This document shows positions 31,876-64,000 of a stretch of 64,000 bases of DNA, piece after piece. A model generated the notes under the pieces. That model did no database searches and had not been told where the DNA came from. It worked only from the letters and a program-made list of their open reading frames with translations. Each line of letters begins with the position of its first letter. Positions within the stretch are counted from its first letter, which is position 1. The translations under genes and the position numbers were made by a program. The stretch is from contig NC_092562.1 in the NCBI RefSeq assembly GCF_037975245.1, forward strand, positions 7,043,501-7,107,500, in the 5' to 3' direction. The stretch is from Apostichopus japonicus (taxonomy: Eukaryota; Echinodermata; Holothuroidea; Aspidochirotida; Stichopodidae).

Positions 31876-32967
31876 TACGGAAGCGTAGAAAGGACATTGC
31901 ATTGACGAGTTACCAACTTGACAAAACGACAATTATCTGCAAATTGACGAGTTGACGAGATGGTAACGTGACAAAATTCAGAAAATTGACGTTTTGACGA
32001 GATAACGGATCTCGTCAATGCAACAATTTTGTCATCTTGTCGAGATGGTATACGTAGTAAGTGTGCAACTCGTCGATTTGCAAAAATTTTTGAATTGACG
32101 AGATCCGTTATCTCGTCAACTCGTCAATTTTCTGAATTTTGTCATCTTGTCGAGATGGTAGTAAGTGTGCAACTCGTCAATTTGCAGAAAATTGTTGCAT
32201 TGACGAGATCCGTTATCTCGTCAAAACGTCAAGTTTCTGAATTTTGTCATCTTGTCGAGATGGTAGTAAGTGTGCAACTCGTCAATTTGCAGAAAATTGT
32301 TGCATTGACGAGATCCGTTATCTCGTCAAAACGTCAATTTTCTGAATTTTGTCATCTTGTCGAGATGGTAGTAAGTGTGCAACTCGTCAATTTGCAGAAA
32401 ATTGTTGCATTGACGAGATCCGTTATCTCGTCAAAACGTCAAGTTTCTGAATTTTGTCATCTTGTCGAGATGGTAGTAAGTGTGCAACTCGTCAATTTGC
32501 AGAAAATTGTTGCATTGACGAGATCCGTTATCTCGTCAAAACGTCAATTTTCTGAATTTTGTCATCTTGTCGAGATGGTAGTAAGTGTGCAACTCGTCAA
32601 TTTACAGAAAATTGTTGCATTGACGAGATCCGTTATCTCGTCAACTCGCCAATTTTCTGAATTTTGTCATCTTGTCGAGATGGTAGTAAGTGTGCAACTC
32701 GTCAATTTGCAGAAAATTGTTGCATTGACGAGATCCATTATCTCGTCAATGCATCAATTTTCTGAAGTTTGTCGAGATGGTAGTAAGTGTGCAACTCGTC
32801 AATTTGCAGAAAATTGATGCATTGACGAGATCCATTATCTCGTCAATGCATCAATTTTCTGAATTTTGTCGAGATGGTAGTAAGTGTGCAACTCGTCAAT
32901 TTGCAGATAATTGTCGTTTTGTCAAGTTGGTAACTCGTCAATGCAATGTCCCTTCTACGCTTCCGTA
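31876..32967. mobile_element. Foldback element with ~78-bp terminal inverted repeats and 105-bp internal tandem repeats
   Basis: Ends TACGGAAGCGTAG and CTACGCTTCCGTA continue inward as an inverted repeat of about 78 bp with one mismatch. GATACT flanks both sides (31870-31875 and 32968-32973). Between them about nine tandem units occur, exactly 105 bp apart at 32141, 32246, 32351, 32456, 32561 and 32666. Each unit has its own small inverted repeats (ACGAGAT-CCGTT-ATCTCGT). As 105 is a multiple of 3, one frame stays open for 262 codons; I regard that as an artefact. There is no transposase, so it must be non-autonomous. Confidence 0.9.
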
Positions 32968-36262: not shown

Positions 36263-36493
36263 CTATGGATTCTCTATATCTTCTGGATGGGACTGTTGGC
36301 TGGATTCTTGTAAAAGGGGTACAACCAAATCAGATCCTGGAGGTAGCGGTTGTAATTGGAAAGAACGGGGAGCGGTCAATTGCTTAGGTAAGTCACGCTC
36401 ATCGTCTCTTGGTAAAAAGAACATGACCAGCTGGGACAAAAGAACTAGCACCGAACCAAAGACAAATGGAGGGCCAGCCATAATAATGTCATC
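36263..36493 (-). CDS. MFSD14A: MFSD14 coding exon 11 (terminal)
   Basis: Last helix (GPPFVFGSVLVLLSQLVMFF) and the tail to TAG at 36263-36265. The acceptor reads TTCTCAGCAG|GATGAC, two AGs three bases apart, so a one-residue (Gln) insertion isoform starting at 36496 is possible. Confidence 0.95.
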   Translation of the reverse strand, partial: DDIIMAGPPFVFGSVLVLLSQLVMFFLPRDDERDLPKQLTAPRSFQLQPLPPGSDLVVPLLQESSQQSHPEDIENP

Positions 36494-39400: not shown

Positions 39401-42400
39401 GTACTGAAATTACCAACCTGAAAGGCAAGAAATTACCATCAAAGGTAAATTATTGAACAACTTGATAGGAGCAAAGACTAGAACTCCCACCATGCTATCA
39501 AATTCAGTTAATCTTTGTTACAAAAAGCAGGAGAGAGTAGGCATCCTCTTGAATTTTGGAGCATTACCTAATATAGCATCTTTCTTCCATTATGCTGTGA
39601 TATAATGTGCTCAACTGGGAGACTGCTTGAATGCAATTATTCATTTTAAGTAAGTGGAAGTTTAAAGTAATAACCAATCATGGCTACACATTGCACCATG
39701 TGTTCAGTGAGGATGAGATTATTGGACACGATCACTGATCACAACACTCATTAAGAATGAAATTTACAAGTACTTAATCTACAGTGAAGATTAACATCTT
39801 CCCTCAAAGACTACTAATTGAAATGAGGCCATCTACATTTTTATTGAAACAAAAGTAATTAAAATACATACCATTTTTAAGTACAAAAACATGCAAGAAT
39901 ACTGTCCTGCTTCTGGTAAGTATGACAAAAAGACTGCAACACATAGCATCAGGACTGTGTAGTCTTGACCAACTTTTCTTAACGTCTACAAAAGGGAAGA
40001 CAAACATGGCAGCTGTTTCACCATTAAGATGATAGACTTACATGTGTATGTTATGACATCAGAGGAAATATTACATCAGCAACCACTAAGAATGTAAACT
40101 AGCAAAATCAAGGAACTGTTCAAAATCATTTAGGGTCGAAAGAAGTGAAAAGTACACTCTGAAGGAACCAGAAATCCAGTTAGCTTTGTGATAACTTGCC
40201 ATACAATTTCCTCACAATTTAAAATAACTATCTGACTAATGTAGAGCAAGCTATGTGATATATAGACACATTTTACCAATTTTGAGCTAGCAATCCCTTT
40301 AATAATTGTTGAGAGTTACATGACATTGTTTATACACTGTGCAATATTTTTGAAAAATTGGCCTATTTTTTTCACCATTTGAGATAACCTGTTCACCCAT
40401 GGAGTCAGTTTGTGCCCAATTGAGATTACCTGTTGACCCCCTTGAGACTCAGAGGGGGGGGGGGACTGATAGGAGGTTTAAGTGCACATTTAAAGCAAGA
40501 CTATCAACTCTGAAGCAGATTTAATTCCATGTTTCGTTGAAGGCCTATAGAGCCCCTTTACAGAACTAAACTGAACTGAATTGACCAAACTATGTTCACC
40601 AAAAGAATATTCATAGCACTGGGGAATTCACAAATTGTAGTATTAAATTTGCAGTTATCATGTTTAAAAGTTTTCAGACTTTGATGCCTGTTAACCTCAT
40701 GTGACCATTGACCTCTACCACCAATTTCAATAGAATTCTTGCACTCACCAAGCTGGATCTACATACTAACTATTAAGTTCAAGGAAGATATACTTCTTGT
40801 GTTATCATGTATACAAAATTTTCAGACTTTCACTTAAATGTTGAATGCAAATGAGCTTTGGCATCAACCAATTTCTATAGTTCTTGTTCTCAACAATCTG
40901 AATCTACACAGTTTGTATGAAGTTCAACAAAGATGTGCTTTTTGAGTTTTCGTGTTCACTAAGTTTATAGACTTTGACCTCTGTTGACCCAAAATGATCA
41001 TTGAACTTCACAGAAAACAATAGGCTTCTTGTACTCAATAAGACCTATCCACACACCAAGTATGAAGTTAATCCAACCATTAACTTTTTGAGTTACTGTG
41101 TTTACAAGCAAGTGTCACATACATAAACACACACACACGCCCTCACCATCGCATAGATTGCTTTTGCCTCCGGCAAGGAATCAAACATTGGCTGAGTGAT
41201 GTCTTTCCCTCAGTTTCTATGATTCATCAATGAGAGTTAAGTCCATAAAGTATGTTCCTGCATAAAAAGAATCCTTTACAGACAAAACTTTACAAGGTTG
41301 GATTCCTTGTGTGGCAAACAGATGATTGACAGTCCCCTTCAGAGATCTACAGGGAATGATGTTGGATTCAAATATTTTGTATCAGTTTAAAAGGCTTTGA
41401 ACATTGGCTCCAATGAACTACTATGGTTCCTGTCTTCATAGATTGTTATACACCATTGCACTTGGAACAGCAATATTGCACAGTTTGCAAAGCATGTATT
41501 ACTCACATTAAACGGGTCGGCTTGTTCCCAAGATATTGCAGCACCCCATGAAACTGGCCGCACCTTCTCTGGTAAAGATTCAGGAACAGCCACTAAAACG
41601 AACAGAACATCACACAGAGCAACTGCTGTGGCTAGAAATATCACAAAGCTGTCACCATATATACCTCCAAGGTAGGCACCCAGGGCTGGACTTGTAATTA
41701 AACTAGCTGCAAATGTGGCAGAAACCTTGAAGAAAAACCAAAAAACATTGAATGATGTGCATAAAGTTTGACATTAGGTAGAATTTTAGTCTTGATTTGG
41801 TATAGGCCAACGAATATTTGAATGCTAGTAATAATTCTACATCTTTCCTGGTTTTCAAGGGATTCACCTCCAAAATATGCTAAATCTTTCTTCCTCCTTC
41901 AAGAATAAATTGATGAAGGCCTCAGCTTCTCGGTGCAGGTCTCAATATTAATGCATTGTGTTATATATTCTATTAACTTAACCAAAACATATTATTTTAA
42001 CTTCATATAAACAAACACAACACCTGGATGGATAACAATCAACATCATTCTTTGCTTGACAACTTTGTACTTTGTAAACATGTCAATTGAGGCCACAAAG
42101 GTCTTGTTTTTTCATTGATTTTGTGTTGCACCTGAGGAACTGACCCAATGGTCTGTGTATGAGCCCACATACTCTAGTCACTTTATCAACCTCAGCTATT
42201 TCAAGATTTTTTATCAAATATTGAAAGTGTTATAGAAATACAACCTGAACAGAAAGCAGTGGTATTTAACGGTCTACAACATATCAAAATTAATTTGTGG
42301 CTTCAAGTCATCCCCTAATATGAAGACACAGACAAGGTCATTTCAGCGCATCAAAGTCATCTCAGCTTTTACTGTTGCATGGAGGTGACAGTGGTCTGAT

Positions 42401-45400
42401 CTGGACAGAATTAGTGTGACACTTTCTTAAGGATGAATATCTGTTTTTTCTCTCATCTGTTAAGTTTGAAAAGTGTGTTTTCTCAGTGACAGTGATCCTG
42501 CATGTCTATTTAAACCTTTCCAAAAGCTTTCAAACCTGATTTTCCTTCACCCATTGTTGATTCCCCTCAGCATCTAGGTAAAAATGTGACAGGTTTGTCT
42601 TATTTTTGTGCCTTTGACTGTTTGGGTTAAAGTATACATCTCCCAAATACTCCACCTTACCAGTTCTAAACATTCTTGTACAAGTTAACCCTAAAATGTT
42701 TTTAAAGTGATTAACCAACATGTAAATTGCTTCAAATTTCTAAATACCAGAAAACGAAAACATTTAGTGGTTCCAATGCCAAACTATTCATAGAGTGGTA
42801 GGCCATACATGTTAATATTCATGAACTTGTGCAGACCAAAATGAAGAGGTATCGATTGACTAATGTGGAAACATAGAAAGGAAGGTACCATGAATCAGTT
42901 ATCATGTTAACAAAGTCTATTTAGAGACATAGTCTAACAACAGCCAAACAGGCACTATGGTTCCTTGCTAAATGGAATATTAAAGTTTTTTATATCATCA
43001 CCCAATATCATATTGGGTGCCCAATATTTATGACCACATAGAAAAGCTATTAAGCAACAACTGTATTCCAAGTTGTAATACAGTCCCTCCACTGTTAATC
43101 CCTCCACTGTTTATCTTTTACCTCTCCTCTTCCCCTGTTGCTTTCTTCTCTCCATCCCTTGTCTACTAATCCCCTTACATGTATCTCATTGTGTTCACCG
43201 TGCTCATTAACCTGTCTGTAACTCTGTATTCTGTGTGTGTTTTTGTCCCTTCTGTTACTGTTACTTGTCATTCAGCCTTTGAAGAAGATCCTGCTAGGAT
43301 TGAAACGTCAGGCCAGCTTACTTACACATTCTCTTATACAGGCTCTCTAGTGGATAAGCAGTTTGCTAACAGTTTTATTTTATTTCAAGTTGGATATAAT
43401 ATGATTAATGATTGTGGAGTTATTGCAATTTTAAAATTTTGGTCCTTCCCAAAGCAGTTGGGCCCAATAAATTTTGAGCATAAATGGTCCAACAAATATT
43501 TGGCACAAACAAAGTGGCTCGAAAATATATTTGCCCCAATAATTGAACTCCAAAAAATGTGGGTCAAAATGGTCCCAAATATATTGAACCCAAAGAATGT
43601 GTAACAAAATGCATTTTGAGGTGGAAAAAAAAAATTGGGCTCACCCATCCCAAAAATGGACCTGGACTTTGTTTGGGTCCAGATGCCCTACTTGTAACTC
43701 TATTAACCATCACTGTATACCAAGTTAGGCTATAATCCGACTAAAGGTTGCAAAAATATTGCAATGTTAAGGAAATGTGGGCCCAAATGGTCCCCAAACA
43801 TACTGGGCCCACAAATTTGAGCCAAAAGAATGTGTCCCAAAGGGCATTTGAGGTGGAAACTAGAGCAGCAATGCTGCAGTGGCTCAACCCATCATCTGTG
43901 AAAGGAAAACCAATTCAGTGGAGGCCATGTGTCTAAAGTAAAGTGTTATATGTACATGCACTGTTTAATTAACTAAACTATGCATACAACTCCATGGCCA
44001 ATGTGGTAAAACAATGGTAGCTCAAGAACACTAGGGAATCAGGTTTCACTGACTAGCAAATTCTGCCATGAAATCATTCTAGAAAATGATTTATGTCACC
44101 TCATCAAGCTTAGACTACATCCCTGCTTAGACTGAGATAAACTAGCATCAAATATTAATTGAGGGTAAGGGATGATTCACCTTCAAAATGCATTTGAGGT
44201 GGAAATAAACTTTGGACAAACCCAGCCCAAATATTAGCCCAGAATTTTTTGGGTCCAAAATGGTCCCAAAAAAATGAAGCATATATTTACCAGCTATTAA
44301 CCAACAACTGTATAGGAAGTTTGGTTACAATCGGACTTAAGGTTGCAGTTGAAGATTTTTACGTTTGACCCCATAACCTCATATTCATAACGTCCAAGCC
44401 AAAAACATTAGGGAACATCTTCTCACTAAAATGCATCTACATAGAAAGTATGACAAATATCCATTACTTCGTTGTTGAGTTATTTCGGACCCAAGCAAGT
44501 GTCACAGTTGCACATTCACATACACACGTCAACTTGACTACTGCATCTATAGGTTCCTTTGCTCCAGCAAGGAACCAAAACAGATACATGTATGAATTTT
44601 AATGATCTCATTAGCATGTATCTGTATACTTACATTGTATTGTGAAAGTACAGACATGTATCAAGGTAATTAGACATACTACATCCATATAGATATCTGA
44701 TTAAGAATTTTATGTTTACTGATTAAATTCATGATATGCAGACAAAACACACAGTTGATTGTGTGAATGTAGTGTGACATTATATAATATGCCAAGGATC
44801 ACACCATGGAACATTTGGTTCTTGTCTTGTGTTTAAAAACCATATCTTGTAATTTGAGAATAATAATGACATAAAGTTGGAGACAACATGAAAGTGTGCT
44901 TATTATCAATGATAATTATATTGATGTGGTAGAAGTTATTGTTGCAAAGAACATGTACTTACTATGTAGTTACATCACCATACCAAGTATATCTTAAATT
45001 GGACATATGGTTGAAGAGATTGACATATTAATCATTTTCAGCCCACTCATTAATATTCAAGAGACGAGAATGAAGACCCAATAGGGCACATCTACTCATC
45101 ATGGGGCATCCATCTATCATAGTATCACATTGATTCAACTTGTGGTTGTTGAGATATCATGTTTACAAGCTGGCTTTTGACAATTTCCCATTAAGCCCCA
45201 CTCACCATAAATATGAATAAGGTAAAATGTACTTATGTAGTTACATCACTATAACACCTATAAACTAAATCAGACATATAGCTGCAGAGATATTGACATC
45301 GTAAAATTTCATGTTTAGCCCCCCCCCCCCACTCATTAATATTCTTGAGATGGGAAATACAAACATAAGGGCACATGTACACATCATGGGACATCTACTT

Positions 45401-48400
45401 ACCAATCATTACATTAACTCAACTTGTGGTTGTTGAGATATCTTGTTTACATGATACATCCACACACACATGCCAGCACACTCAAAAGGTTAATGAGCTT
45501 TCAGCATCGTAACCAAAAATAAATTTCCATCATTCCATGCAAATGTTTACCTTACGGTCCTTACCATACAAAATTTAGATACTATTCATGATATTTCCCA
45601 TCATTGCACCCCATTTTTCCCACATGCACACTAGGAAATATCCAAAGGAAATGTTCTTATTTGTCAAGAATAGAGGTAGGGAATGCTTTTTGTGTTCATG
45701 GAAAGGCACTATCTGATATATCCTTAAATTTAAAGGAATTGTCTGGTGGAAGATTTTGATACATTGTCCTTGTAGTTATTATTTTTCTCTTTCTAACCAT
45801 GTAAAAATTGTCCCCATTCGACGTTTTCTTCTTGTAGAAATCTGGTTTTCAAATTCACCAGTTTCTCACCAAAAGTACCGTTTGTTCGAACGCTTCAATA
45901 TGGTGATTGACGTAGTGCTTGCAGATAGGCAAAACAGGCGACTTGAAGATAGCACTCCCATTTCCGCAACAAATACACTCTCACGTGTATGCACATTGGA
46001 TTGCCTAATATAACGTACATACTCGCGAACGTATATCCTACGATGCCCAGATGGTGCACTTGTATAGCGTAATAATACACTCACACTCAAACCACAGTTC
46101 ATAAACTGTTCTTCGAAATCGCTGAAATAAAATTCACGGATCAAATTAACAGTAAAAGGAAACTTAAAAAGTATTTGTTACACCGAAAGATGAAACTTGG
46201 CGGAATCGTTTTCAGAGCAGAATGTAGCAAGGAGAAGCTAACTAAGGCTTCGCAGAACTGTCCGGTTGTAAACGTTAGAGTAGCCTATACGCGCTAACAT
46301 TCTTCGCGCTGGAGCTGGATAGCGCGATGTATAAACAACGAAGAGTCTGCTGTTAAAACTTATCTTGTGTTACAGAAAGAACACGAAACCACTGATCTAC
46401 TACGTATATGGCGGCTTAAGGAGTTTTTTAAATCATATCTAATTTATAAAAAATGTCACCGGAAATTATGGAAGAAATTTATCGGAATCGTTGTCAGAGC
46501 AGAATATAGCGCGCCACTGAGAAGCTTAGGCTTCGCAGAACTGTCCGATTGTCAACGTTTGAGTATAGCCTACATGCGAACATTCTTCGCATTGGAGCTG
46601 GATAGCGCGATGTAAAGCCTAAACAACGAAGAGTCTGCTGTTAAATTTACATTGTGTTACACAAAGACCACCGAACCACCGATCTAGTACATGGCGGCTT
46701 AAGGAGTTTTTGAAAACATATCTAATTTCTAAGAAATTTCACCGGAAATTAAGGAAGAAATTTATCCGTATACAAACGCGGTTTTTGTTGTGATTACCGT
46801 ATAGGTACTGTGCGGAGGGTGGGTTATGACGCAATCTGCTATGGCAGAGCTGACGTCACGTATTGTACTGTTCAAATCATATTTGAAATGTCTATCCTTA
46901 ACGATTAAAAAATCGTTTCTCTGTCAAACGCAATATTAGCGTTCTCATACTTTGACAACATGTTTGGAAAATTATTTACTATTTTTTAAGGTAACTTCTT
47001 TGGGCCACCAGACAATCCTTTTAAGCCTAAGTGTGATAATAAGGTAATCATATTCATTGATGTTTTATGTGCCTGAAGAAAAAGGTATCCAATCTGAAAA
47101 GTGGCAGAAAAAAGGCCAAAATATCCAACTATGGATTCTTTCCACTCACTGCATGAAGTTTCAACCTTTTCTACCACGACAATCAATGTTTTCATGTTCA
47201 AATACGTACATGTAAGATAAGGTATAAAACCTTCTTTAATAATTTCTATTTGCTTTTGTTTCTTTCATTAACTTGTTAATAACTTCATATAATTAAATTA
47301 CTACTAATATCGCACTGCTTATGCTTGCTCTCCATGTCTATTGGATCAGACCGTATATAATAATATAGTAATATCCAATTTAGCTCTTAAACAGTTGTTA
47401 CTACTACTATCTATTATGCAGGCCCAGGGTTCGCATTAGCCGCGAGCTTGCGCGATCCGCGCAATTTGATCGCATATGGAATAAACGATTAGTAAAAAGC
47501 CACTTGCGATTATTATTTTATAGTTAATCCGTCTATAATCCGTAAACATCTCGTAAAATTCCTTGTCAGCCTTTCCTTCTATGAAATAAACGAATGAATA
47601 AATAATAATTTCTTCCACATGGTAGCCTAACACCACACTAAGTCAATGAGAAATCTAGCAAAGCCTAACCATCTGTTTATTCGCTGAAATTGTGACGCAG
47701 TTATAAGATATCCATGGAATACTTTCGTTATTGCTGTTATCTTCGACGACCACATGGTAGCCTAACACCACACTAAGTCAATGGGAAATCTGCCTAACCA
47801 TCGGTTTAAAAAAAAAAAGTCCCAGTTTGCTTAGGATTCGGGTAATAAATTAGGAACCGGGAAGTATCGCGCCGGGCGGGTACCTTCGTTATTGCTGTTA
47901 TCTTCGACCACATGGTAGTCTAACACCACACTAAGTCAATGGGATATCTGCCTAACCGTTGGTTTGCCCAACTTTTTTTTTTTAAATCACACTTTGCGTA
48001 GGATTCGGGTAATAAATTAGGAACCGGTTAGTATCCCGTCGGGCAGGTACCCGGATAACCCGTGCAAACACTAATGAATACAATATAGTACATAGAAATT
48101 GCTGGTAATTTTGATATAGACTGTGAAGCTTGCTGATCCACACACACAGACTTACCAGGCCATATGCTGAAGTTCTCTCTGATTCATCTGTTATATCAGC
48201 AACATATGCAAAAATGATGGAAAATGTGACAGAAAAGATACCAGAGACAGATATCATGGCAAAGAACCACCTGTAAAGATAAGAAGTTAAACACAGTAAT
48301 TTCATCAGTTACTTCAATAGTGCAGTGTTGCTTTTCAATTAGAATTTTATAATTACCTGATCCCAGTTTTCAAGAGTACTTACTGAAATGTGTGTAAGAC

Positions 48401-51400
48401 TTTATTAACATGATTCTTTCAAACCTATTGATGACATTCAGCTTCCACAAAGGCATAAAAGAACCTTTCATGTTTACTTCTTACTGTATAGTATGTGTGG
48501 TAAAGGCTGAACTTGTTTGAAATCAGCAATGAAGTCAGTAACAAAAACTAATTGCATGGTGAAATGTATAGATGTGAATCCAGAAATAAGAGAAGGCATA
48601 ATTACCATGGGCTTATTCTCATCAGTGGTATAGGCATACATGTAAAGAAAACCGTTAAAAGAAGGAAAGATTTGCGACCCCAGACATCTGACAGAGCTCC
48701 TACTAGGGGTGCACTCAGAAATGAAAGTATACCCTGGAAGATATATCAATGTATAAGAGAGTAACAAAATCAATTCATGAACAACAAAGAACTTCTTGTT
48801 ACAACTTCAACAAGTCTGTGGTTGAAAATTGTCAACTGATCAAAGTCTTAAACAACAATTACATTTGGACTTTAACATGTATGTTTTGTAGAAGTAAGCA
48901 TAACAGGATTGTAAAGACCATGCTGATTCATAAAAATGTACAGAAAATGTATATCTAGATAAAAAGAACTTGTAAATTGGGATAGTAACAAGTATATATA
49001 TGAGTTGCAACAAATCAATACAGCTTAGATACAAGATATAAAGAATTTTCAGCTCTATTTTTTAATTGTCTGTACTTAATACAACAAATGCATCTGGATT
49101 ACAACTAGTATGAATGTATTTATCACATCCTGTATCCCTGTAGGTATAGTTGTTGCATAATAACTAACAACCAGAGTTATATGAGTCAGTTATATGAGAA
49201 TCACATTGGACAAAATTCTTCTTCACTACAAGCAATTGCTACACACAGAGCTAGTGATCCGAGCAACCTTGTTTTACACAGAGATTCCATAGGTACTGTA
49301 ATTACCTTTACTCCTTGAACCAAGCCATTCATCAGAAATGTATAATCTGGGAATGTTTTGTTCAAAACCTGAAACAAAACCAAAGGTAAATAAATGAGAG
49401 ATGCTTATCGTATTTAAAATATTGAAAAAAGAGCATTACTATATAAAGCTTAAAGGGCATAGCTGGCAGTTTTTAATCCATTCAAGTTAATGTTACATGA
49501 ATATTACACTTGCACCTTTCCATTGATGGATAGCAAGAAGTAGTTGTCCTCTTACCATAATGTACAATGCCATTTGCTAAAATACTCTTCAATGTAATAC
49601 TAGGAGTGAAAAACCTTTGAAATATAAACCAATATCACCTCCAAAGCTATCAACGACAAGCATTTTCAATGATTCTTTCTCTGTGAATCATGGGTCAACT
49701 TTGGCTAAAAAAAGCAATCCTTCTTGATTATACTCACTGTCAACATAGGACTTGTCAAGAGTCCCCAGGCAAAGAACTCCAGGAAAATAACTATCAGTGC
49801 ATGATAAATACTTGGTTCTCCTATGCCCTGAAAGAGACAAGGGAAGGTTACATTAACTCTGCGTTCACATAGCACACTCATATTCAGGCATAGCTCTAAA
49901 TTGCAGGGAACATCATGGACTCTATTTTAACTCTTCAACACCATCAGTGAATGAAAGACAGAGTATGAAAGGTGTATACTGTGACAATCAATGGGTGTAA
50001 AATTGGCAAAGTTGACTTGCTTGATGATCCCCTTGCCCCTATAAAACAAGGGAATTAGCCCGGTGAAGGGGGTTGTGAAAAATTTCGTAAACACCCTCTT
50101 CATGTTGTATGAATTTGGGGGGCGACAGGATGTCACGTTTTCCCGTGGGGGTGGGGAATTTGTCAACCTCTCAGTGATCACGGACTTAGTGTTTTTATTA
50201 GAATCGTTTTACGTGCAGAGTCTATGAGAGATTTTGGACTTAGTCTAGATTTGTGTACTACTGCTTTAGAGTTAGCCTCTGTTAGCGCAATAGCCCCTAC
50301 TGGCATTACTGTATCTGTAACTCTTTTTACTGGGATATTAGCAGCTGGCAAAATACTTATGCTCTTTGCACTACACAAACTTCCAATATGGTATACAAGA
50401 TGCAAAGAGTAGCTCCACTGTGTGACACCCTGCTAACATGTACCATAACAATAGTGAGTCTACATGCATGCATACTACAAGTGCAAGGGCTCTTACTACA
50501 TATCCTGAAAAAGCTGATGAACAGCAGGTAGCATGGTGGGCTCATAATTGACGCACTTAAGGTATTGATCAACGATGTCCATCAAGGAAAAATCCAAATC
50601 ACTCAACTGTATGTGTTTTTCATATGTGTAGTTCCTCAAAAATGTTATGATCTCAAAATATTTAAGGTTCTGTGCTTATGCACCGTACAATTGAGCAGAA
50701 ATTGACCACAAAATGTCTGCGGTGTCAAGTTCTTTCATACCCCTAAATTGACACATTCCTCGATAAGCTAACTGTAGTGTAGGCATTAGTATACATCCAT
50801 TGACTTTGGATGATGTTTGCCATGCTCTGAGCCTTTGAACAAATATACTTCAAGTTCATGGGGAACACTTTGAAAACTGACAAAATATGCACAGATTTAA
50901 ATAGAATCACAGAAATTGCAGACAGAAATCTGCCAGTCTGTGTGAGAGGGTAATGAGTTCCCTATTGCAACTTGCAAGGCATACTGTGATGCCCGGTGGA
51001 GCGTCACGTAAACGCCTCCGTACATAGGTGGCATCACTGCTGGAGTACTTTTCCTGTTTGTGTGTATTGTTTTATTTTTTTCTGGGGGTCTTTTTTATGT
51101 AATATCTTTTTATATGTAAAGTGAATTGTTGTAGTTTTCACATGCTAATTTATACCTTTTGTTTCCGTCTCCCTTTCAGCTGTCCAGCTCTCGTGACAAT
51201 AGTCTGCTTCCTCCGTAGCTATGTGGAATGTTCGAGCCACGCAAAGTTCCAAGGTTTCGATTCAGTATTTGTGTTAGGTTAGGGCACTTGCCATTTTGGG
51301 TTCCAAGAGTGTGTTCTATTTTTCGTGTTTGCTGCTGCCTAGTGAGGTCCGTTGGTCAGTTTGTTAAGTAAGTTAAATGTTCTTTCATAGTTTAGGCAAG

Positions 51401-52369
51401 TCCGAGTCCTTTTTCTTATAATATTGTGGGCATATTTCCCCGTTTGTCAGAATCCCTTTAAATTATTACAACTAAAACTCATTAAAAGGTTGGGAACACG
51501 GTCGATAGTATTGCCGCACCCTGCGGGGTTATTCTTATATTTGTGGAGCGGGGGTGACTTTGATTCGGGTTGAGTTATCCCCGAGGCAACGCCTACGTAT
51601 TGTAGATTTAGGACTCGAAATTATACGTTTGGCCACGGACTTCGCAGGTACGGAGGTACGTATCGTTATTATTTATGTACATTATAAGCTGGGAATTATG
51701 TGGATTTATATGTTATTAATTAAATATTGGTCCTAATTTACTTATTTGCTACACTATTATTGGAGGTCACTGCGTTGACCTCATGTATTATTTAATTGGG
51801 TTTTATAGACACCTAAGTGGAGAAGGCAAAGGTATTGTATTAAATGTATTTGTAGTTCAAAAATCAATTTATTTGTTCATGTTTTATTGGTTCAGGTTGT
51901 CTTAACTTGTAGTTGCCCCACATTCATCCTGACATAGGGTGGCCGACAGCGGCACTATCGAACCAACGGCCGCTCGGCTAGTTAAAACCCCGTTGGGGGG
52001 CGCTACAATACAGACTGATGGGGTCAAAATTTTCAGGCAAGGCTTAGCCTAGTTTGATTGGTATTTGGTAACTGCTTCTCTGGAGGTGAGGCTTCAGATC
52101 GGCGGGGTATTATATACTTGTACCAGAATAACTTGCCTACTCCATGGTGTAACACACCCCGTAATGGTTGTTTAGCCTTTATATATTTATGACTAAACTT
52201 ATGGCCAGCTAACAATAGTCAATACAGCATGAGTACTACAGTACTACTAGTAGTAGACTAACGCTAGGCTAGCACTGTCCAGCCTAACATTAGGCCTGGG
52301 ACCTACCGTCGATTCAACTGTGTCTTTGTTTCCCTTCCTTCTAGTGACTACCTTCTTTCGTTTCTTCAT
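36263..52369 (-). CDS. MFSD14A: MFSD14 (HIAT1-like) major facilitator transporter, complete, 11 coding exons, 485 aa
   Basis: An orphan 12-helix major facilitator protein; mammalian MFSD14A is needed for sperm head formation and its substrate is not firmly known. Exons, in transcript order: 52307-52369, 49738-49827, 49306-49368, 48606-48733, 48156-48270, 41507-41725, 39872-39985, 39346-39417, 37908-38118, 37474-37625, 36263-36493. All junctions are GT-AG, and phases match to give 485 residues against 490 in human MFSD14A. Key motifs are the family loop GALSDVWGRK (residues 84-93), AYVADITDESER (exon 5), VAVPESLPEK (198-207), ISWEQADPF, SYLPEAGQYS, GLCNGLGPALYGFIF-like SLCNGLGPALYGFIF, and an acidic, Pro/Gln-rich C-tail. 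The start is the first ATG after an in-frame TAG. Whether it is the A or B paralogue, or pre-duplication, cannot be decided here. Confidence 0.95.
37474..37625 (-). CDS. MFSD14A: MFSD14 coding exon 10
   Basis: Completes the split Gly codon and encodes VLQGMITGIRSLCNGLGPAL, then YGFIFYFF and an acidic loop. It ends GGAAAG|GTAAGA. Confidence 0.95.
37908..38118 (-). CDS. MFSD14A: MFSD14 coding exon 9
   Basis: 70 codons plus one base. WYGFGTQPWMMWAAG and PAISALVSRNAPPDKQG are strongly conserved in HIAT1. Confidence 0.95.
38475..38700 (-). repeat. AGGTCA-bearing dispersed repeat in MFSD14 intron 8
   Basis: Read on the minus strand it carries GTAAACACGATATCTCAAGAAGG, ATTACAAGAAGCC and a perfect AGGTCAAAGGTCA (38532-38544). 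Confidence 0.8.
38905..39235. repeat. Intronic repeat, contiguous copy
   Basis: TTAATATTCATGAACTTGCA, ACATAGAAAAGAAGGTACCA and GATATCTGATTAAGAATTTT recur in the same order at 42810-42940 and 44620-44810. Confidence 0.75.
39346..39417 (-). CDS. MFSD14A: MFSD14 coding exon 8
   Basis: 24 codons, VGNFSTPEVPAYIAFVGILS then VFAQ. This is the least conserved of the helical exons. Confidence 0.9.
39872..39985 (-). CDS. MFSD14A: MFSD14 coding exon 7
   Basis: 38 codons, TLRKVGQDYT to SYLPEAGQYS and MFLYLKM, phase 0. Confidence 0.95.
40660..41195 (-). repeat. AGGTCA-bearing dispersed repeat in MFSD14 intron 6
   Basis: Several successive modules read inverted, with TGACCATTGACCTCTACC, TTTGACCTCTGTTGACC and GAGTTACTGTGTTTACAAGC. 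It ends in the head hairpin TTTTGCCTCCGGCAAGGAATC near 41163-41183. Confidence 0.8.
41507..41725 (-). CDS. MFSD14A: MFSD14 coding exon 6
   Basis: 73 codons, VSATFAASLITSPALGAYLG to ISWEQADPFN, phase 0 at both ends. It follows the largest intron (41726-48155). Confidence 0.95.
42810..42940. repeat. Intronic repeat, split copy, first part
   Basis: Matches 38905-39035. The rest of the unit appears only at 44620, so about 1.65 kb of other sequence separates the halves. Confidence 0.7.
43274..43384 (+). repeat. Retroelement-tail repeat, copy 2, with stem-loop
   Basis: TTTGAAGAAG, then the hairpin ATCCT-GCT-AGGAT, then TGAAACGTCAGGCCAGCTTA. From GAAACGTC it matches 440-527. The arrangement resembles the degraded hammerhead-like ends of Penelope-type elements, but the CUGAUGA core is not intact. 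Confidence 0.55.
44290..44580 (-). repeat. AGGTCA-family repeat in MFSD14 intron 5
   Basis: GTTTGACCCCATAACCTCAT, ATGCATCTACATAGAAAGTATGA and TTCCTTTGCTCCAGCAAGGAACC follow the family order in inverted orientation, strongly diverged. Confidence 0.6.
44620..44810. repeat. Intronic repeat, split copy, second part
   Basis: Matches 39085-39235 (GATATCTGATTAAGAATTTT, ACACAGTTGATTGT, AATATGCCAAGGAT). Confidence 0.7.
46201..46770. repeat. Two-copy tandem duplication, about 282-bp unit, in MFSD14 intron 5
   Basis: CGGAATCGTTTTCAGAGCAG at 46201 recurs as CGGAATCGTTGTCAGAGCAG at 46483. CTGGAGCTGGATAGCGCGATGT and GGCGGCTTAAGGAGTTTTT also appear twice in register. The copies have diverged noticeably. 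Confidence 0.9.
47610..48040. repeat. Tandem repeat, about 160-bp unit, in MFSD14 intron 5
   Basis: TTCGTTATTGCTGTTATCTTCG at 47724 and 47885, and CACATGGTAGCCTAACACCACA three times, define two full units and one partial. GGGTAATAAATTAGGAACCG recurs likewise. Confidence 0.85.
48156..48270 (-). CDS. MFSD14A: MFSD14 coding exon 5
   Basis: Completes the split Trp codon and encodes the helix MISVSGIFSVTFSIIF and AYVADITDESER. It ends CTG|GTAAGT. Confidence 0.95.
48606..48733 (-). CDS. MFSD14A: MFSD14 coding exon 4
   Basis: Carries the family signature loop GALSDVWGRKSFLLL. It ends in a split Trp codon (TG|G). Confidence 0.95.
49306..49368 (-). CDS. MFSD14A: MFSD14 coding exon 3
   Basis: 21 codons with FPDYTFLMNGLVQGVK, near-identical to vertebrate HIAT1. 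Phase 0 at both ends. Confidence 0.95.
49738..49827 (-). CDS. MFSD14A: MFSD14 coding exon 2
   Basis: 30 codons. GIGEPSIYHA leads into the first helix, IVIFLEFFAWGLL. Phase 0 at both ends. Confidence 0.95.
49828..50980 (-). other. MFSD14 intron 1, right-hand part
   Basis: No exon. A patch at 50165-50415 is open on both strands for about 75 codons and may be an old transposon fragment that I cannot assign. Confidence 0.45.
50985..52007 (+). mobile_element. Probable solo LTR (about 1.02 kb) in MFSD14 intron 1
   Basis: It starts TGTGATGCCCGGTGG and ends GGGCGCTACA (TG...CA), flanked by ATAC on both sides (50981-50984 and 52008-52011). There is no internal coding sequence, tRNA primer site or second LTR. 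GC-rich distal sequence and TG/CA ends fit a Gypsy-type LTR left by recombination. Orientation is assigned only from TG...CA reading on the plus strand and is uncertain. Confidence 0.6.
52307..52369 (-). CDS. MFSD14A: MFSD14 coding exon 1
   Basis: 21 codons, very basic (MKKRKKVVTRRKGNKD), forming the cytosolic N-tail. It ends ACG|GTAGGT, phase 0. An in-frame TAG lies upstream in the 5' leader. Confidence 0.85.
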
Positions 52370-53776: not shown

Positions 53777-54489
53777 AATCGAATGTGCGGTACCGATCAA
53801 AAGAATGTACGGTACCGATCAATCGAATGTGCGGTATCGATAAATCGAATGTGCGGTATCGATCAATCGAATGTGCGGTACCGATCATTCGAATGTGCGG
53901 TATCGATCAATCGAATGTGCAGTACCGATAAATAGAATGTGCGGTACCGATTAATCGATTGTGCGGTACCGATCATTCAAATGTTCGGTACCGATGAATC
54001 CAATGTGCGGTACCGAACAATCGAATGTGCGGTACCTATAAATCGAATGTGCGGTACCGATCAATCGATTGTGCGGTACCGATAAATCGAATGGGCGGTG
54101 CCGATAGGTCGAATGTGCGGTAGTGATCAATTGAATGTGCGGTACCGATAAATCGAATGTGCGGTACCGATCATTCGAATGTGCGGTACCGATAAATGGA
54201 ATGTGCGGTAGCGATCAATCGAATGTGCGGTACAGAACAATCGAATGTGCGGTACCGATAAATAAAATGTGCGGTACCGATCATTCGATGTGCGGTACCG
54301 ATCAATCGAATGTGCGGTACCGATAAATAGAATGTTCGGTACCGATTAATCGATTGTGCGGTACCGATAAATCGAATGTGCGGTACCGAACAATCGAATG
54401 TTCAGTACCGATAAATAGAATGTGCGGTACCGATCATTCGAATGTGCGGTACCATTCAATTGAATATGCGGTACCGATCAATCGAATGT

Positions 54490-57400
54490 GCGGTACCGAT
54501 CATTCGATTGTGCGGTACCGATCAATCGAATGTTCGGTGCCGATCAATCGAAATTGCGGTACCGATCAATCGATTGTGCGGAACCGATCAATCGAATGTG
54601 CGGTACCGATTAATCGATTGTGCGGTACCGATAATGTGCGGTACCGATAGGTCGAATGTGCGGTAGTGATCAATCGAATGTGCGGTACCGATAAATCGAA
54701 TGTGCGGTACCGATCATTCGAATGTGCGGTACCGATCATTCGAATGTGCGGTACCGATCAATCGAATGTGCGGTACCGATCAATCGATTGTGCGGTACCG
54801 ATAAATCGAAAGTGCGGTACCGATAAATGGAATGTACGGTACCGATCAATAGAATGTGCGGTACCGATCAATCGAATGTGCGGTACCGATCAATCGAATG
54901 TGCGGTACCCAACAATCGAATGTGCGGTATCGATAAATCGAATGCGCGGTACCGATCATTCGAATGTGCGGTACCGATCAATCGAATGTGCGGTACCGAT
55001 AAATAGAATGTGCGGTACCGATCAATCGAATGTTCGGTACCGATAAATAGAATGTGCGGTACCGATCATTCGAATGTGCGGTACCATTCAATTGAATATG
55101 CGGTACCGATAAATCGAATGTGCGGTACCGATCATTCGATTGTGCGGTACCGATCAATCGAATGTGCGGTACCGATAAATCGATTGTGCGGTACCGATAA
55201 ATCGAATGTGCGGTACCGATAAATGGAATGTACGGTACCGATCAATAAAATGTGCGGTACCAAACAATCGAATGTGCGGTACCGATAAATCGAATGTGCG
55301 GTACCGATCATTCGAATGTGCGGTACCGATCAATCGAATGTTCGGTGCCGATCAATCGAAATTGCGGTACCGATCAATCGATTGTGCGGTACCGATAAAT
55401 CGAATGTGCGGTACCGATAGGTCGAAGGTGCGTTAGTGATAAATAGAACGTGCGGTACCGATAGGTCGAATGTACGGTAGTGATCAATCGAATGTGCGGT
55501 ACCGATAAATCGAATGTGCGGTACCGATAAATCGAATGTGCGGTACCGATAGGTCGAATGTGCGGTAGTGATCAATCGAATGTGCGGTACCGATAAATCG
55601 AATGTGCGGTACCGATCATTCGAATGTGCGGTACCAATAAATGGAATGTGCGGTAGCGATCTATCGAATGTGCGGTACAGAACAATCGAATGTGCGGTAG
55701 CGATAAATCGAATGTGCGGTACCGATCATTCGAATGTGCGGTACCGATCAATCGAATGTGCGGTACCGATAAATAGAATGTGCGGTACCGATCAATCGAT
55801 TGTGCGGTACCGATAAATCGAATGTGCGGTACCGAACAATCGAATGTTCGGTACCGATAAATCGATTGTGCGGTACCGATAAATCGAAAGTGCGGTACCG
55901 ATAAATGGAATGTACGGTACCGATCAATAGAATGTGCGGTACCGATCAATCGAATGTGCGGTACCCAACAATCGAATGTGCGGTATCGATAAATCGAATG
56001 CGCGGTACCGATCAGTCGAATGTACGGTACCGATCAATCGAATGTGCGGTACCGATAAATAGAATGTGCGGTACCGATTAATAGATTGTGCGGTACCGAT
56101 GAATCGAATGTGCGGTATCGATAAATGGAATGTACGGTACCGATCAATCGAATGTGCGGTACCAAACAATCGAATGTGCGGTACCGATAAATCCAAACAA
56201 TCGGTATACCAAACAATCGAATGTTCGGTACCGATAAATAGAATGTGCGGTACCGATCATTCGAATGTGCGGTACCATTCAATTGAATATGCGGTACCGA
56301 TAAATCGATTGTGCGGTACCGATCAATCGAATGTTCGGTGCCGATCAATCGAAATTGCGGTACCGATCAATCGATTGTGCGGTACCGATCAATCGAATGT
56401 GCGGTACCGATCAATCGATTGTGCGGTACCGATCATTCGAATGTGCGGTACTGATCAATCGAATGTTCGGTGCCGATCAATCGAAATTGCGGTACCGATA
56501 AATCGAATGTGCGGTACCGATAGGTCGAATGTGCGGTAGTGATCAATCGAATGTGCGGTACCGATAAATCGAATGTGCGGTACCGATAAATCGAATGTGC
56601 GGTACCGATCAATCGAATGTGCGGTACCGATAAATGGAATGTGCGGTAGCGATCTATCGAATGTGCGGTACAGAAAAATCGAATGTCCGGTACCGATAAA
56701 TCGAATGTGCGGTACCGATCATTCGAATGTGCGGTACCGATCAATCGAATGTGCGGTACCGATAAATAGAATGTGCGGTACCGATCAATCGATTGAATAT
56801 GCGGTACCGATAAATCGAATGTGCGGTACCGAAAAATCGAATGTTCGGTACCGATAAATCGATTGTGCGGTACCGATAAATCGAAAGTGCGGTACCGATA
56901 AATCGAATGTACGGTACCGATCAATAGAATGTGCGGTACAGATCAATCGAATGTGCGGTACCGATCAATCGAATGTGCGGTACCCAACAATCGAATGTGC
57001 GGTATCGATAAATCGAATGCGCGGTACCGATCATTCGAATGTGCGGTACCGATCAATCGAATGTGCGGTACCGATAAATAGAATGTGCGGTACCCATTAA
57101 TAGATTGTGCGGTACCGATAAATCGAATGTGCGGTATCGATAAATGGAATGTACGGTACCGATCAATCGAATGTGCGGTACCAAACAATCGAATGTGCGG
57201 TACCGATAAATCGAATGTGCGGTACCGATCAATCGAATGTGCGGTACCGATAAATAGAATGTGCGGTACCGATCAATTGATTGTGCGGTACCGATAAATC
57301 GAATGTGCGGTACCGATAAATGGAATGTACGGTACCGATCAATCGAATGTGCGGTACCGATAAATCGAATGTGCGGTACCGAACAATCGAATGTGCGGTA

Positions 57401-57703
57401 CCGATCAATGGAATGTGCGGTACCAAACAATCGAATGTGCGGTACCGATCAATGGAATGTGCGGTACCAAACAATCGAATGTGCGGTACCGATAAATCGA
57501 ATGTGCGGTACCGATCATTCGAATGTGCGGTACCGATCAATCGAATGTGCGGTACCGATAAATCGAATGTGCGGTACCGATCATTCGAATGTGCGGTACT
57601 GATCAATCGAATGTTCGGTGCCGATCAATCGAAATTGCGGTACCGATCATTCGAACGTGCGGTACCGATAAATCGAATGTGCGGTACCGATCATTCGAAT
57701 GTG
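54490..57703. repeat. Satellite higher-order unit 1 (3213 bp)
   Basis: Relative to unit 2 it has five additional monomers (110 bp) near 55047-55160, containing the odd ACCATTCAATTGAATATG variant. Boundaries are arbitrary within the period. Confidence 0.85.
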
Positions 57704-60700
57704 CGGTACCGATCATTCGATTGTGCGGTACCGATCAATCGAATGTTCGGTGCCGATCAATCGAAATTGCGGTACCGATCAATCGATTGTGCGGAACCGA
57801 TCAATCGAATGTGCGGTACCGATTAATCGATTGTGCGGTACCGATAATGTGCGGTACCGATAGGTCGAATGTGCGGTAGTGATCAATCGAATGTGCGGTA
57901 CCGATAAATCGAATGTGCGGTACCGATCATTCGAATGTGCGGTACCGATCATTCGAATGTGCGGTACCGATCAATCGAATGTGCGGTACCGATCAATCGA
58001 TTGTGCGGTACCGATAAATCGAAAGTGCGGTACCGATAAATGGAATGTACGGTACCGATCAATAGAATGTGCGGTACCGATCAATCGAATGTGCGGTACC
58101 GATCAATCGAATGTGCGGTACCCAACAATCGAATGTGCGGTATCGATAAATCGAATGCGCGGTACCGATCATTCGAATGTGCGGTACCGATCAATCGAAT
58201 GTGCGGTACCGATAAATAGAATGTGCGGTACCGATCAATCGAATGTTCGGTACCGATAAATAGAATGTGCGGTACCGATAAATCGATTGTGCGGTACCGA
58301 TAAATCGAATGTGCGGTACCGATAAATGGAATGTACGGTACCGATCAATAAAATGTGCGGTACCAAACAATCGAATGTGCGGTACCGATAAATCGAATGT
58401 GCGGTACCGATCATTCGAATGTGCGGTACCGATCAATCGAATGTTCGGTGCCGATCAATCGAAATTGCGGTACCGATCAATCGATTGTGCGGTACCGATA
58501 AATCGAATGTGCGGTACCGATAGGTCGAAGGTGCGTTAGTGATAAATAGAACGTGCGGTACCGATAGGTCGAATGTACGGTAGTGATCAATCGAATGTGC
58601 GGTACCGATAAATCGAATGTGCGGAACCGATAAATCGAATGTGCGGTACCGATAGGTCGAATGTGCGGTAGTGATCAATCGAATGTGCGGTACCGATAAA
58701 TCGAATGTGCGGTACCGATCATTCGAATGTGCGGTACCAATAAATGGAATGTGCGGTAGCGATCTATCGAATGTGCGGTACAGAACAATCGAATGTGCGG
58801 TAGCGATAAATCGAATGTGCGGTACCGATCATTCGAATGTGCGGTACCGATCAATCGAATGTGCGGTACCGATAAATAGAATGTGCGGTACCGATCAATC
58901 GATTGTGCGGTACCGATAAATCGAATGTGCGGTACCGAACAATCGAATGTTCGGTACCGATAAATCGATTGTGCGGTACCGATAAATCGAAAGTGCGGTA
59001 CCGATAAATGGAATGTACGGTACCGATCAATAGAATGTGCGGTACCGATCAATCGAATGTGCGGTACCCAACAATCGAATGTGCGGTATCGATAAATCGA
59101 ATGCGCGGTACCGATCAGTCGAATGTGCGGTACCGATCAATCGAATGTGCGGTACCGATAAATAGAATGTGCGGTACCGATTAATAGATTGTGCGGTACC
59201 GATGAATCGAATGTGCGGTATCGATAAATGGAATGTACGGTACCGATCAATCGAATGTGCGGTACCAAACAATCGAATGTGCGGTACCGATAAATCCAAA
59301 CAATCGGTATACCAAACAATCGAATGTTCGGTACCGATAAATAGAATGTGCGGTACCGATCATTCGAATGTGCGGTACCATTCAATTGAATATGCGGTAC
59401 CGATAAATCGATTGTGCGGTACCGATCAATCGAATGTTCGGTGCCGATCAATCGAAATTGCGGTACCGATCAATCGATTGTGCGGTACCGATCAATCGAA
59501 TGTGCGGTACCGATCAATCGATTGTGCGGTACCGATCATTCGAATGTGCGGTACTGATCAATCGAATGTTCGGTGCCGATCAATCGAAATTGCGGTACCG
59601 ATAAATCGAATGTGCGGTACCGATAGGTCGAATGTGCGGTAGTGATCAATCGAATGTGCGGTACCGATAAATCGAATGTGCGGTACCGATAAATCGAATG
59701 TGCGGTACCGATCAATCGAATGTGCGGTACCGATAAATGGAATGTGCGGTAGCGATCTATCGAATGTGCGGTACAGAAAAATCGAATGTGCGGTACCGAT
59801 AAATCGAATGTGCGGTACCGATCATTCGAATGTGCGGTACCGATCAATCGAATGTGCGGTACCGATAAATAGAATGTGCGGTACCGATCAATCGATTGAA
59901 TATGCGGTACCGATAAATCGAATGTGCGGTACCGAACAATCGAATGTTCGGTACCGATAAATCGATTGTGCGGTACCGATAAATCGAAAGTGCGGTACCG
60001 ATAAATCGAATGTACGGTACCGATCAATAGAATGTGCGGTACAGATCAATCGAATGTGCGGTACCGATCAATCGAATGTGCGGTACCCAACAATCGAATG
60101 TGCGGTATCGATAAATCGAATGCGCGGTACCGATCATTCGAATGTGCGGTACCGATCAATCGAATGTGCGGTACCGATAAATAGAATGTGCGGTACCCAT
60201 TAAAAGATTGTGCGGTACCGATAAATCGAATGTGCGGTATCGATAAATGGAATGTACGGTACCGATCAATCGAATGTGCGGTACAGAACAATCGAATGTG
60301 CGGTACCGATAAATCGAATGTGCGGTACCGATCAATCGAATGTGCGGTACCGATAAATAGAATGTGCGGTACCGATCAATTGATTGTGCGGTACCGATAA
60401 ATCGAATGTGCGGTACCGATAAATGGAATGTACGGTACCGATCAATCGAATGTGCGGTACCGATAAATCGAATGTGCGGTACCGAACAATCGAATGTGCG
60501 GTACCGATCAATGGAATGTGCGGTACCAAACAATCGAATGTGCGGTACCGATCAATGGAATGTGCGGTACCAAACAATCGAATGTGCGGTACCGATAAAT
60601 CGAATGTGCGGTACCGATCATTCGAATGTGCGGTACCGATCAATCGAATGTGCGGTACCGATAAATCGAATGTGCGGTACCGATCATTCGAATGTGCGGT

Positions 60701-60806
60701 ACTGATCAATCGAATGTTCGGTGCCGATCAATCGAAATTGCGGTACCGATCATTCGAACGTGCGGTACCGATAAATCGAATGTGCGGTACCGATCATTCG
60801 AATGTG
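57704..60806. repeat. Satellite higher-order unit 2 (3103 bp)
   Basis: Near-identical to unit 1, aside from the missing five monomers and rare single-base changes. Confidence 0.85.
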
Positions 60807-63409
60807 CGGTACCGATCATTCGATTGTGCGGTACCGATCAATCGAATGTTCGGTGCCGATCAATCGAAATTGCGGTACCGATCAATCGATTGTGCGGAAC
60901 CGATCATTCGATTGTGCGGTACCGATCAATCGAATGTGCGGTACCGATAAATCGATTGTGTGGTACCGATAAATCGAATGTGCGGTACCGATAAATGGAA
61001 TGTACGGTACCGATCAATAAAATGTGCGGTACCAAACAATCGAATGTGCGGTACCGATAAATCGAATGTGTGGTACCGATCATTCGAATGTGCGGTACCG
61101 ATCAATCGAATGTGCGGTACCGATAAATCGAATGTGCGGTACCGATAGGTCGAAGGTGCGTTAGTGATAAATAGAACGTGCGGTACCGATAGGTCGAATG
61201 TACGGTAGTGATCAATCGAATGTGCGGTACCGATAAATCGAATGTGCGGTACCGATAAATCGAATGTGCGGTACCGATAGGTCGAATGTGCGGTAGTGAT
61301 CAATCGAATGTGCGGTACCGATAAATCGAATGTGCGGTACCGATCATTCGAATGTGCGGTACCGATCAATCGAATGTGCGGTACCAATAAATGGAATGTG
61401 CGGTAGCGATCTATCGAATGTGCGGTACAGAACAATCGAATGTGCGGTAGCGATAAATCGAATGTGCGGTACCGATCATTCGAATGTGCGGTACCGATCA
61501 ATCGAATGTGCGGTACCGATAAATAGAATGTGCGGTACCGATCATTCGAATGTGCGGTACCGATCAATCGAATGTGCGGTACCGATAAATCGAATGTTCG
61601 GTACCGATCATTCGAATGTGCGGTACTGATCAATCGAATGTTCGGTACCGATAAATCGAATGTGCGGTACCCAACAATCGAATGTGCGGTATCGATAAAT
61701 CGAATGCACGGTACCGATCAGTCGAATGTGCGGTACCGATCAATCGAATGTGCGGTACCGATAAATAGAATGTGCGGTACCGATTAATAGATTGTGCGGT
61801 ACCGATGAATCGAATGTGCGGTATCGATAAATGGAATGTACGGTACCGATCAATCGAATGTGCGGTACCAAACAATCGAATGTGCGGTACCGATAAATCC
61901 AAACAATCGGTATACCAAACAATCGAATGTTCGGTACCGATAAATAGAATGTGCGGTACCGATAGGTCGAATGTGCGGTACCATTCAATTGAATATGCGG
62001 TACCGATAAATCGATTGTGCGGTACCGATCAATCGAATGTTCGGTGCCGATCAATCGAAATTGCGGTACCGATCAATCGATTGTGCGGTACCGATCAATC
62101 GAATGTGCGGTACCGATCAATCGATTGTGCGGTACCGATCATTCGAATGTGCGGTACTGATCAATCGAATGTTCGGTGCCGATCAATCGAAATTGCGGTA
62201 CCGATAAATCGAATGTGCGGTACCGATAGGTCGAATGTGCGGTAGTGATCAATCGAATGTGCGGTACCGATAAATCGAATGTGCGGTACCGATAAATCGA
62301 ATGTGCGGTACCGATCAATCGAATGTGCGGTACCGATAAATGGAATGTGCGGTAGCGATCTATCGAATGTGCGGTACAGAAAAATCGAATGTGCGGTACC
62401 GATAAATCGAATGTGCGGTACCGATCATTCGAATGTGCGGTACCGATCAATCGAATGTGCGGTACCGATAAATAGAATGTGCGGTACCGATCAATCGATT
62501 GAATATGCGGTACCGATAAATCGAATGTGCGGTACCGAACAATCGAATGTTCGGTACCGATAAATCGATTGTGCGGTACCGATAAATCGAAAGTGCGGTA
62601 CCGATAAATCGAATGTACGGTACCGATCAATAGAATGTGCGGTACAGATCAATCGAATGTGCGGTACCGATCAATCGAATGTGCGGTACCCAACAATCGA
62701 ATGTGCGGTATCGATAAATCGAATGCGCGGTACCGATCATTCGAATGTGCGGTACCGATCAATCGAATGTGCGGTACCGATAAATAGAATGTGCGGTACC
62801 CATTAATAGATTGTGCGGTACCGATAAATCGAATGTGCGGTATCGATAAATGGAATGTACGGTACCGATCAATCGAATGTGCGGTACCAAACAATCGAAT
62901 GTGCGGTACCGATAAATCGAATGTGCGGTACCGATCAATCGAATGTGCGGTACCGATAAATAGAATGTGCGGTACCGATCAATTGATTGTGCGGTACCGA
63001 TAAATCGAATGTGCGGTACCGATAAATGGAATGTACGGTACCGATCAATCGAATGTGCGGTACCGATAAATCGAATGTGCGGTACCGAACAATCGAATGT
63101 GCGGTACCGATCAATGGAATGTGCGGTACCAAACAATCGAATGTGCGGTACCGATCAATGGAATGTGCGGTACCAAACAATCGAATGTGCGGTACCGATA
63201 AATCGAATGTGCGGTACCGATCATTCGAATGTGCGGTACCGATCAATCGAATGTGCGGTACCGATAAATCGAATGTGCGGTACCGATCATTCGAATGTGC
63301 GGTACTGATCAATCGAATGTTCGGTGCCGATCAATCGAAATTGCGGTACCGATCATTCGAACGTGCGGTACCGATAAATCGAATGTGCGGTACCGATCAT
63401 TCGAATGTG
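60807..63409. repeat. Satellite higher-order unit 3 (2603 bp) and start of a fourth
   Basis: Lacks about 500 bp relative to unit 2 and has the junction variant GTGCGGAACCGATCATTCG at 60894. The same junction recurs 2603 bp later (63497), so the shortened unit has itself been copied. Confidence 0.85.
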
Positions 63410-64000
63410 CGGTACCGATCATTCGATTGTGCGGTACCGATCAATCGAATGTTCGGTGCCGATCAATCGAAATTGCGGTACCGATCAATCGATTGTGCGG
63501 AACCGATCATTCGATTGTGCGGTACCGATCAATCGAATGTGCGGTACCGATAAATCGATTGTGTGGTACCGATAAATCGAATGTGCGGTACCGATAAATG
63601 GAATGTACGGTACCGATCAATAAAATGTGCGGTACCAAACAATCGAATGTGCGGTACCGATAAATCGAATGTGTGGTACCGATCATTCGAATGTGCGGTA
63701 CCGATCAATCGAATGTGCGGTACCGATAAATCGAATGTGCGGTACCGATAGGTCGAAGGTGCGTTAGTGATAAATAGAACGTGCGGTACCGATAGGTCGA
63801 ATGTACGGTAGTGATCAATCGAATGTGCGGTACCGATAAATCGAATGTGCGGTACCGATAAATCGAATGTGCGGTACCGATAGGTCGAATGTGCGGTAGT
63901 GATCAATCGAATGTGCGGTACCGATAAATCGAATGTGCGGTACCGATCATTCGAATGTGCGGTACCGATCAATCGAATGTGCGGTACCAATAAATGGAAT

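Follow-up and report, generated by a model that had tools for sequence, protein, structure and literature searches.

The window, by which we mean the whole stretch of 64,000 nucleotides of Apostichopus japonicus DNA analysed here, ends on its right side within a long tandem array of a 22-bp monomer (Table 1). Judging from predicted exons, the left side of this array is gene-bearing. Closest to the array lies a gene that looks like an ordinary transporter gene of the MFSD14 type. Its exon models are predicted: a tblastn search with an MFSD14-type protein placed exons from 37528 to 49797 on the minus strand (8 of 11 rows were used; three rows with E values of 0.64-4.8 elsewhere in the window were dropped as chance), and the model was then enlarged by an exon at 49736-49827. 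The splice donor and the phase of the first coding exon were read by eye. Pfam MFS_1 matched two of seven fragments of the predicted protein, both under the curated cut-off. The array begins 1408 bp upstream of the predicted start codon. One intron of the predicted gene holds 1.8 tandem copies of a 283-bp sequence (46245-46766, 85% matches), and the first intron includes a T-rich strand (51001-52000, AT skew -0.247) that is perhaps a transposon remnant.

Table 1. Predicted gene parts and repeat features of the window, numbered from its first nucleotide
Feature	Position	Strand	Remarks
MFSD14-type gene, remaining predicted exons	36266..49827	-	tblastn with MFSD14-type protein, extended
MFSD14-type gene, C-terminal part	near 36266-36511	-	read by eye
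MFSD14-type gene, predicted exons	37528-37626, 37906-38130, ~39869-39985, ~41507-41725	-	
MFSD14-type gene, predicted exons	48150-48269, 48605-48736, ~49306-49368, 49736-49827	-	
MFSD14-type MFS transporter gene, predicted first coding exon	52307..52369	-	63 nt, MKKRKKVVTRRKGNKDTVEST then GTAGGT; translation
Tandem array of 22-bp monomer AATCGAATGTGCGGTACCGAT(C/A)	53777..64000	.	465 copies, runs past window end
Left array edge	53777..54466	.	outside recent kilobase duplications; 12 of 27 monomer types recur in rest of array
Higher-order unit, copy 1	54467..57679	.	3213 bp, 146 monomers
Higher-order unit, copy 2	57680..60782	.	3103 bp, 141 monomers
Second unit type	59051..61653	.	118 monomers (2603 bp); recurs from 61654 up to window end
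Replacement block	60907..61653	.	747 bp, in place of ~1.25 kb of preceding unit

Further to the left, an STK11-like exon was found at 2855-3274 (E 2.2e-34), for which a Pfam search of the fragment returned no family. This match and the MFSD14-type gene both point to an animal host, and the look of the flanks would suit an echinoderm. An unbroken frame of 356 aa at 13069-14139, intronless over this length, carries WD40 and SOCS-box matches above the Pfam cut-offs; we take it to be WSB-like. A match to U2 snRNA at 23588-23675 (Rfam, 52.5 bits against a threshold of 46) is probably a truncated pseudogene, since it covers just 88 nt of a 192-position model. The frame at 29131-29544 presumably corresponds to the reverse transcriptase of a non-LTR retrotransposon, which it would resemble in the C-terminal part; Pfam gives only ALKBH8_N, under the cut-off. 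A second tandem array, with a 105-bp unit in 8.6 copies and 95% matches, occupies 32025-32914, and its unit holds inverted stretches around CTCGTCAA/TTGACGAG.

More than 10 kb of a ~22-bp monomer had been described in an earlier note on this DNA, and two analyses bear this out. TRF reports period 22 over 53777-64000 with 464.4 copies, 85% matches and 0% indels, and a wrap-around decomposition yields 465 monomers, the final one cut by the window end, of which 453 are of full length and free of indels. They fall into 76 distinct types if gapped types and the cut monomer are included. The consensus reads AATCGAATGTGCGGTACCGAT and ends in either C (262 of 464) or A (186 of 464). The palindrome CGGTACCG occurs 335 times and GGTACC 375 times in the array, CGGTACCG is absent from the first 53700 bases of the window, and positions 1-53776 contain no monomer-like 22-mer (at least 17 of 22 positions against the consensus, whatever the rotation or strand). 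The observed/expected ratio of CpG reaches 2.3 in the array as compared to 0.6 in positions 1-53776, in agreement with, and explained by, the three CpGs per monomer that the note had counted. Open reading frames of up to 175 aa (plus strand) and 235 aa (minus strand) span the array; as both strands are equally open, they were taken as chance and a coding array was rejected. The folding energy of a 396-nt stretch is -97.2 kcal/mol, and 100 shuffles average -53.0; no weight was given to this difference because a strong fold is expected of any tandem palindrome.

The array carries higher-order structure. At lag 3213 the best ungapped block copies 54467-55066 onto 57680-58279 (600 bp, 1 difference), at lag 3103 it copies 55160-57803 onto 58263-60906 (2644 bp, 7 differences), and at lag 2603 it copies 59051-61397 onto 61654-64000 (2347 bp with 7 differences, truncated where the window stops). 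Each of these units comprises a whole number of monomers (146, 141 and 118, respectively). Block copies are 99.7-99.8% identical and their edges are sharp, as compared to 86-88% between monomers elsewhere: monomer identity at the other spacings tried (1-15, 20, 30, 45-47, 50 and others) was 0.863-0.878, and at the unit spacings it was 0.908 (118), 0.918 (141), 0.881 (146) and 0.922 (259). With the real monomer order, 220-bp windows of at least 97% identity were found at 8787 positions over all lags, and none was found in eight shuffles of monomer order. The unit lengths and monomer numbers proposed earlier, the preserved order of monomer variants within the units and the 3.1/2.6-kb periodicity on which that proposal depended are hence all present, and the block identities and unit counts support recent amplification. 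Many regular tandem copies of a single unit are a mark of higher-order satellite DNA; in view here are two unit types in two to three copies, with each lag seen essentially once, one array edge visible and the window ending inside the array. A first pass with looser windows had given 97.4, 99.1 and 99.4% identity with 18, 25 and 15 differences for lags 3213, 3103 and 2603; 43 of these 58 differences come from ragged ends beyond the tight blocks, where different monomers are aligned with each other. Copies of ~95% identity, e.g. at lags 993 and 1019, also appeared in the looser scan.

From the coordinates, the array can be written as a succession of four parts, A (124 bp), B (476 bp), C (~2.5 kb, with a 17-bp overlap with B) and D (747 bp), in the order edge - A B (extra 110 bp) C - A B C - A D C* - A D..., where C* is C minus its first ~0.8 kb. 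Part D, the replacement block, matches other parts of the array at 92.7-98.2% in the six or so overlapping 220-bp pieces that were compared. This indicates that D is not foreign and that beneath the recent block copying lies an earlier layer whose copies have diverged further.

Each lag equals 22 times the monomer number (146, 141 or 118) plus the net indel. This sum must hold wherever two copies share phase, and the evidential weight therefore rests on the indels. Ten of the eleven indel-bearing monomers recur at the corresponding place of another unit, and the only one that does not (54283) lies in the left edge, so that none of the junctions introduced a new indel. As the register would usually be lost in random end-joining, pairing through the repeat is the natural reading. 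Two indel-bearing monomers (57825 and 57844) sit just past the block edge at 57803; as the same pair is found at 54612 and 54631, it looks older than this junction, where the exact join is uncertain. Eight distinct changes separate the block copies at lags 3103 and 2603. Six of them yield a monomer type seen nowhere else and are ordinary point changes, and the remaining two are adjacent multi-base changes (57182-57183 and 56258-56260) that suggest small conversions; for the doublet 57182-57183, both monomer types are also found elsewhere (5 and 2 in all, these copies counted).

Our preferred reading, to which we assign a probability of roughly 0.7, is that of a non-coding array of satellite or minisatellite type upstream of an MFSD14-type gene, the blocks of which were duplicated by misaligned homologous exchange. 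On a background of monomers that are ~86-88% alike, blocks of 118-146 monomers have been duplicated in tandem and in 22-bp register, presumably by break-repair within the array or by unequal exchange between sister chromatids, with perhaps an occasional short conversion between monomers. The likeliest function would be none beyond that of a recombination-prone spacer, and length variation between individuals is a prediction of this model. The earlier note had left the choice between unequal exchange and rolling-circle amplification open; the kept 22-bp register and the unequal unit sizes favour homologous unequal exchange, which they do not prove. One observation counts against a simple unequal-exchange model, which predicts decay at the array edge: the left edge shows no clear excess of divergence over the interior, the mean number of differences per monomer being 1.3, 1.4, 1.3 and 1.9 for the first four groups of ten and 1.1 for the next twenty, as compared to 1.27-1.28 inside.

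The divergence between copies bears on the rolling-circle alternative, in which an excised circle was amplified and then reinserted. Three copies share a stretch of 1856 bp, in which they carry 3, 3 and 4 private differences. The copies are therefore of similar age and almost equidistant; these differences are too few to order events, and such a star-like divergence suits a single burst, e.g. by rolling-circle amplification, equally well. A circle should, however, yield equal units, and the units found here differ both in length (3213, 3103 and 2603 bp) and in content, so that we consider this origin improbable. Marginally less probable still is an artefact of assembly, by which haplotypes or misjoined reads were set in tandem. 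The array is long relative to short reads, and allelic differences of 0.3%, the value found between the copies, are within range for many animals; yet an artefact fits poorly with the replacement of a whole block (747 bp for ~1.25 kb), with the change in length by 110 bp between unit copies and with joins that hold the 22-bp register. Among the alternatives, the one that we would rate highest, while still regarding it as unlikely, is that a large centromeric or pericentromeric satellite block starts beside the gene and that the visible array is its edge. The array is open at the window end, and higher-order structure is typical of centromeric satellites in the excerpted account of PMC5615363. 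Against this stand a predicted conserved gene at a distance of 1.4 kb, other gene exons within the same 54 kb and the absence of monomer-like 22-mers from the entire sequence to the left. Although genes can border such blocks and the window presents the left side only, the nearby predicted exons and the lack of monomer-like sequence elsewhere on this side do not indicate a centromere.

The KpnI-palindrome core emphasised by the earlier note is obvious in the consensus, but the pattern of conservation does not support a role for it. CGGTACCG is intact in 72.4% of the monomers (0.724) and ranks only fifth among the 22 circular 8-mers, which are led by GTGCGGTA with 77.1% (0.771). Within the core, columns 12-15 vary in 0.4-1.1% of the monomers and columns 17-19 in 7.8-9.7%. 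This difference indicates that the dyad is not kept as a dyad, and the palindrome was rejected as a constrained element. A further alternative is a regulatory or insulator array, in which a putative binding site in the monomers is under selection and acts on the neighbouring gene. The five adjacent columns with the least variation are 12-16 (CGGTA; permutation p 0.034 for the monomer types of one unit, 0.073 for the raw counts of that unit), and changes between block copies affect the quiet columns 3, 6 and 12-15 in 2 of 11 cases by bases and in 2 of 8 by events, as compared to 2 of 123 among the older differences between types (Fisher p 0.034 by bases, 0.019 by events); the array also sits 1.4 kb upstream of the gene. 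However, the three-copy stretch taken by itself gives 1 of 10 (p 0.21), the quiet columns were picked after the old data had been seen, the monomer types are not independent, and copying alone can keep columns constant. The signal of column constraint is weak, partly post hoc and drawn from dependent data, and we treat it as a lead and not as a result. A regulatory array is accordingly the least favoured of the readings weighed here and very improbable. Equally slender are the odds of a more specific gene-side platform, in which a host protein would bind an asymmetric conserved motif around GTGCGGTA in each monomer, in-register exchange would tune copy number, and the number of units would alter MFSD14-type expression between individuals.

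As a test for methylation-driven decay of CpG, transitions were counted over all 72 types of ungapped monomer in the array, which are not independent of each other. Of the 48 changes at the six CpG columns, 24 are transitions, as compared to 30 of 89 at the others without column 22 (34 of 124 with column 22). If column 4 (itself 4 of 20) is left out, the CpG columns give 20 of 28. A mild deamination signal at the CpG columns is possible, and no conclusion was drawn from it.

With misaligned homologous exchange as the preferred reading, the array represents a clean record of how a higher-order unit originates, namely by in-register duplication of blocks of 118-146 monomers. Its value is that of a worked example of early satellite growth, with just two or three copies beside a gene. 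It is a well-formed case of a known mode of repeat growth and not a new type of element. The sequence of the monomer itself appears to be undescribed in the literature searched, while the kind of element is already known. Five stretches of monomer letters, compared with full-text literature, gave one 13-base match, in a cancer promoter study, which was taken as chance; searches by topic gave nothing naming this repeat among the matches listed. Neither an exact 21-base match in prokaryotic contigs nor the two-monomer pattern in viral contigs was found, in collections that say little on animal repeats.

Several known systems share features with this array. The chicken XhoI family and the bovine 1.706 satellite are precedents on which we do not rely; literature searches for them returned nothing, or only the muntjac paper. 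Minisatellite loci are length-polymorphic, and in those with interspersed variant repeats, variant monomers serve as markers. Minisatellites have monomers of 10-100 bp and are euchromatic by convention, according to the excerpted part of PMC5615363. A monomer of 22 bp in 465 tandem copies lies within this size range, and predicted exons place the array beside a gene; unlike minisatellites, the array exceeds 10 kb and carries block duplication at the kilobase scale. In the same review excerpt, higher-order repeats are characterised by the contrast of monomers within a unit and between units, and complex ones are reported from several non-primate mammals and insects (PMC5615363). As in the higher-order repeats of primate alpha satellite described there, monomers within a unit are far more diverged than the corresponding monomers of different units. 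Alpha satellite differs by a monomer of ~170 bp as compared to 22 bp, by 2-34 monomers per unit as compared to 118-146 and by the centromeric location of its arrays.

The presence of satellite-type DNA beside a gene has a parallel in Tribolium TCAST, which flanks genes as short dispersed pieces (PMC3411249, PMC5844308, in the portions consulted). These euchromatic TCAST-like pieces are, unlike the present array, short, being single repeats or tandems up to tetramers, and for the 22-bp monomer no heterochromatic counterpart is known here. A similar unit structure is described for cervid satellite I and the bovine 1.715 satellite, with which the array was compared by description and not by letters. 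Here the monomer is 22 bp and not 31 bp long, the units are irregular (2.6-3.2 kb) and few in number, and they lie beside a gene. In cervid satellite I, a unit of about a kilobase consists of 31-bp subrepeats, and subrepeats at the same place are more alike across species than are the subrepeats within one unit (PMC2760882 and PMC7835801, as excerpted). As these excerpts already describe short subrepeats that build up units of roughly a kilobase, the higher-order structure, which the earlier note had called unusual, is only mildly so. As in cervid satellite I and the bovine 1.715 satellite, a unit on the kilobase scale has been assembled from a short and diverged subrepeat.
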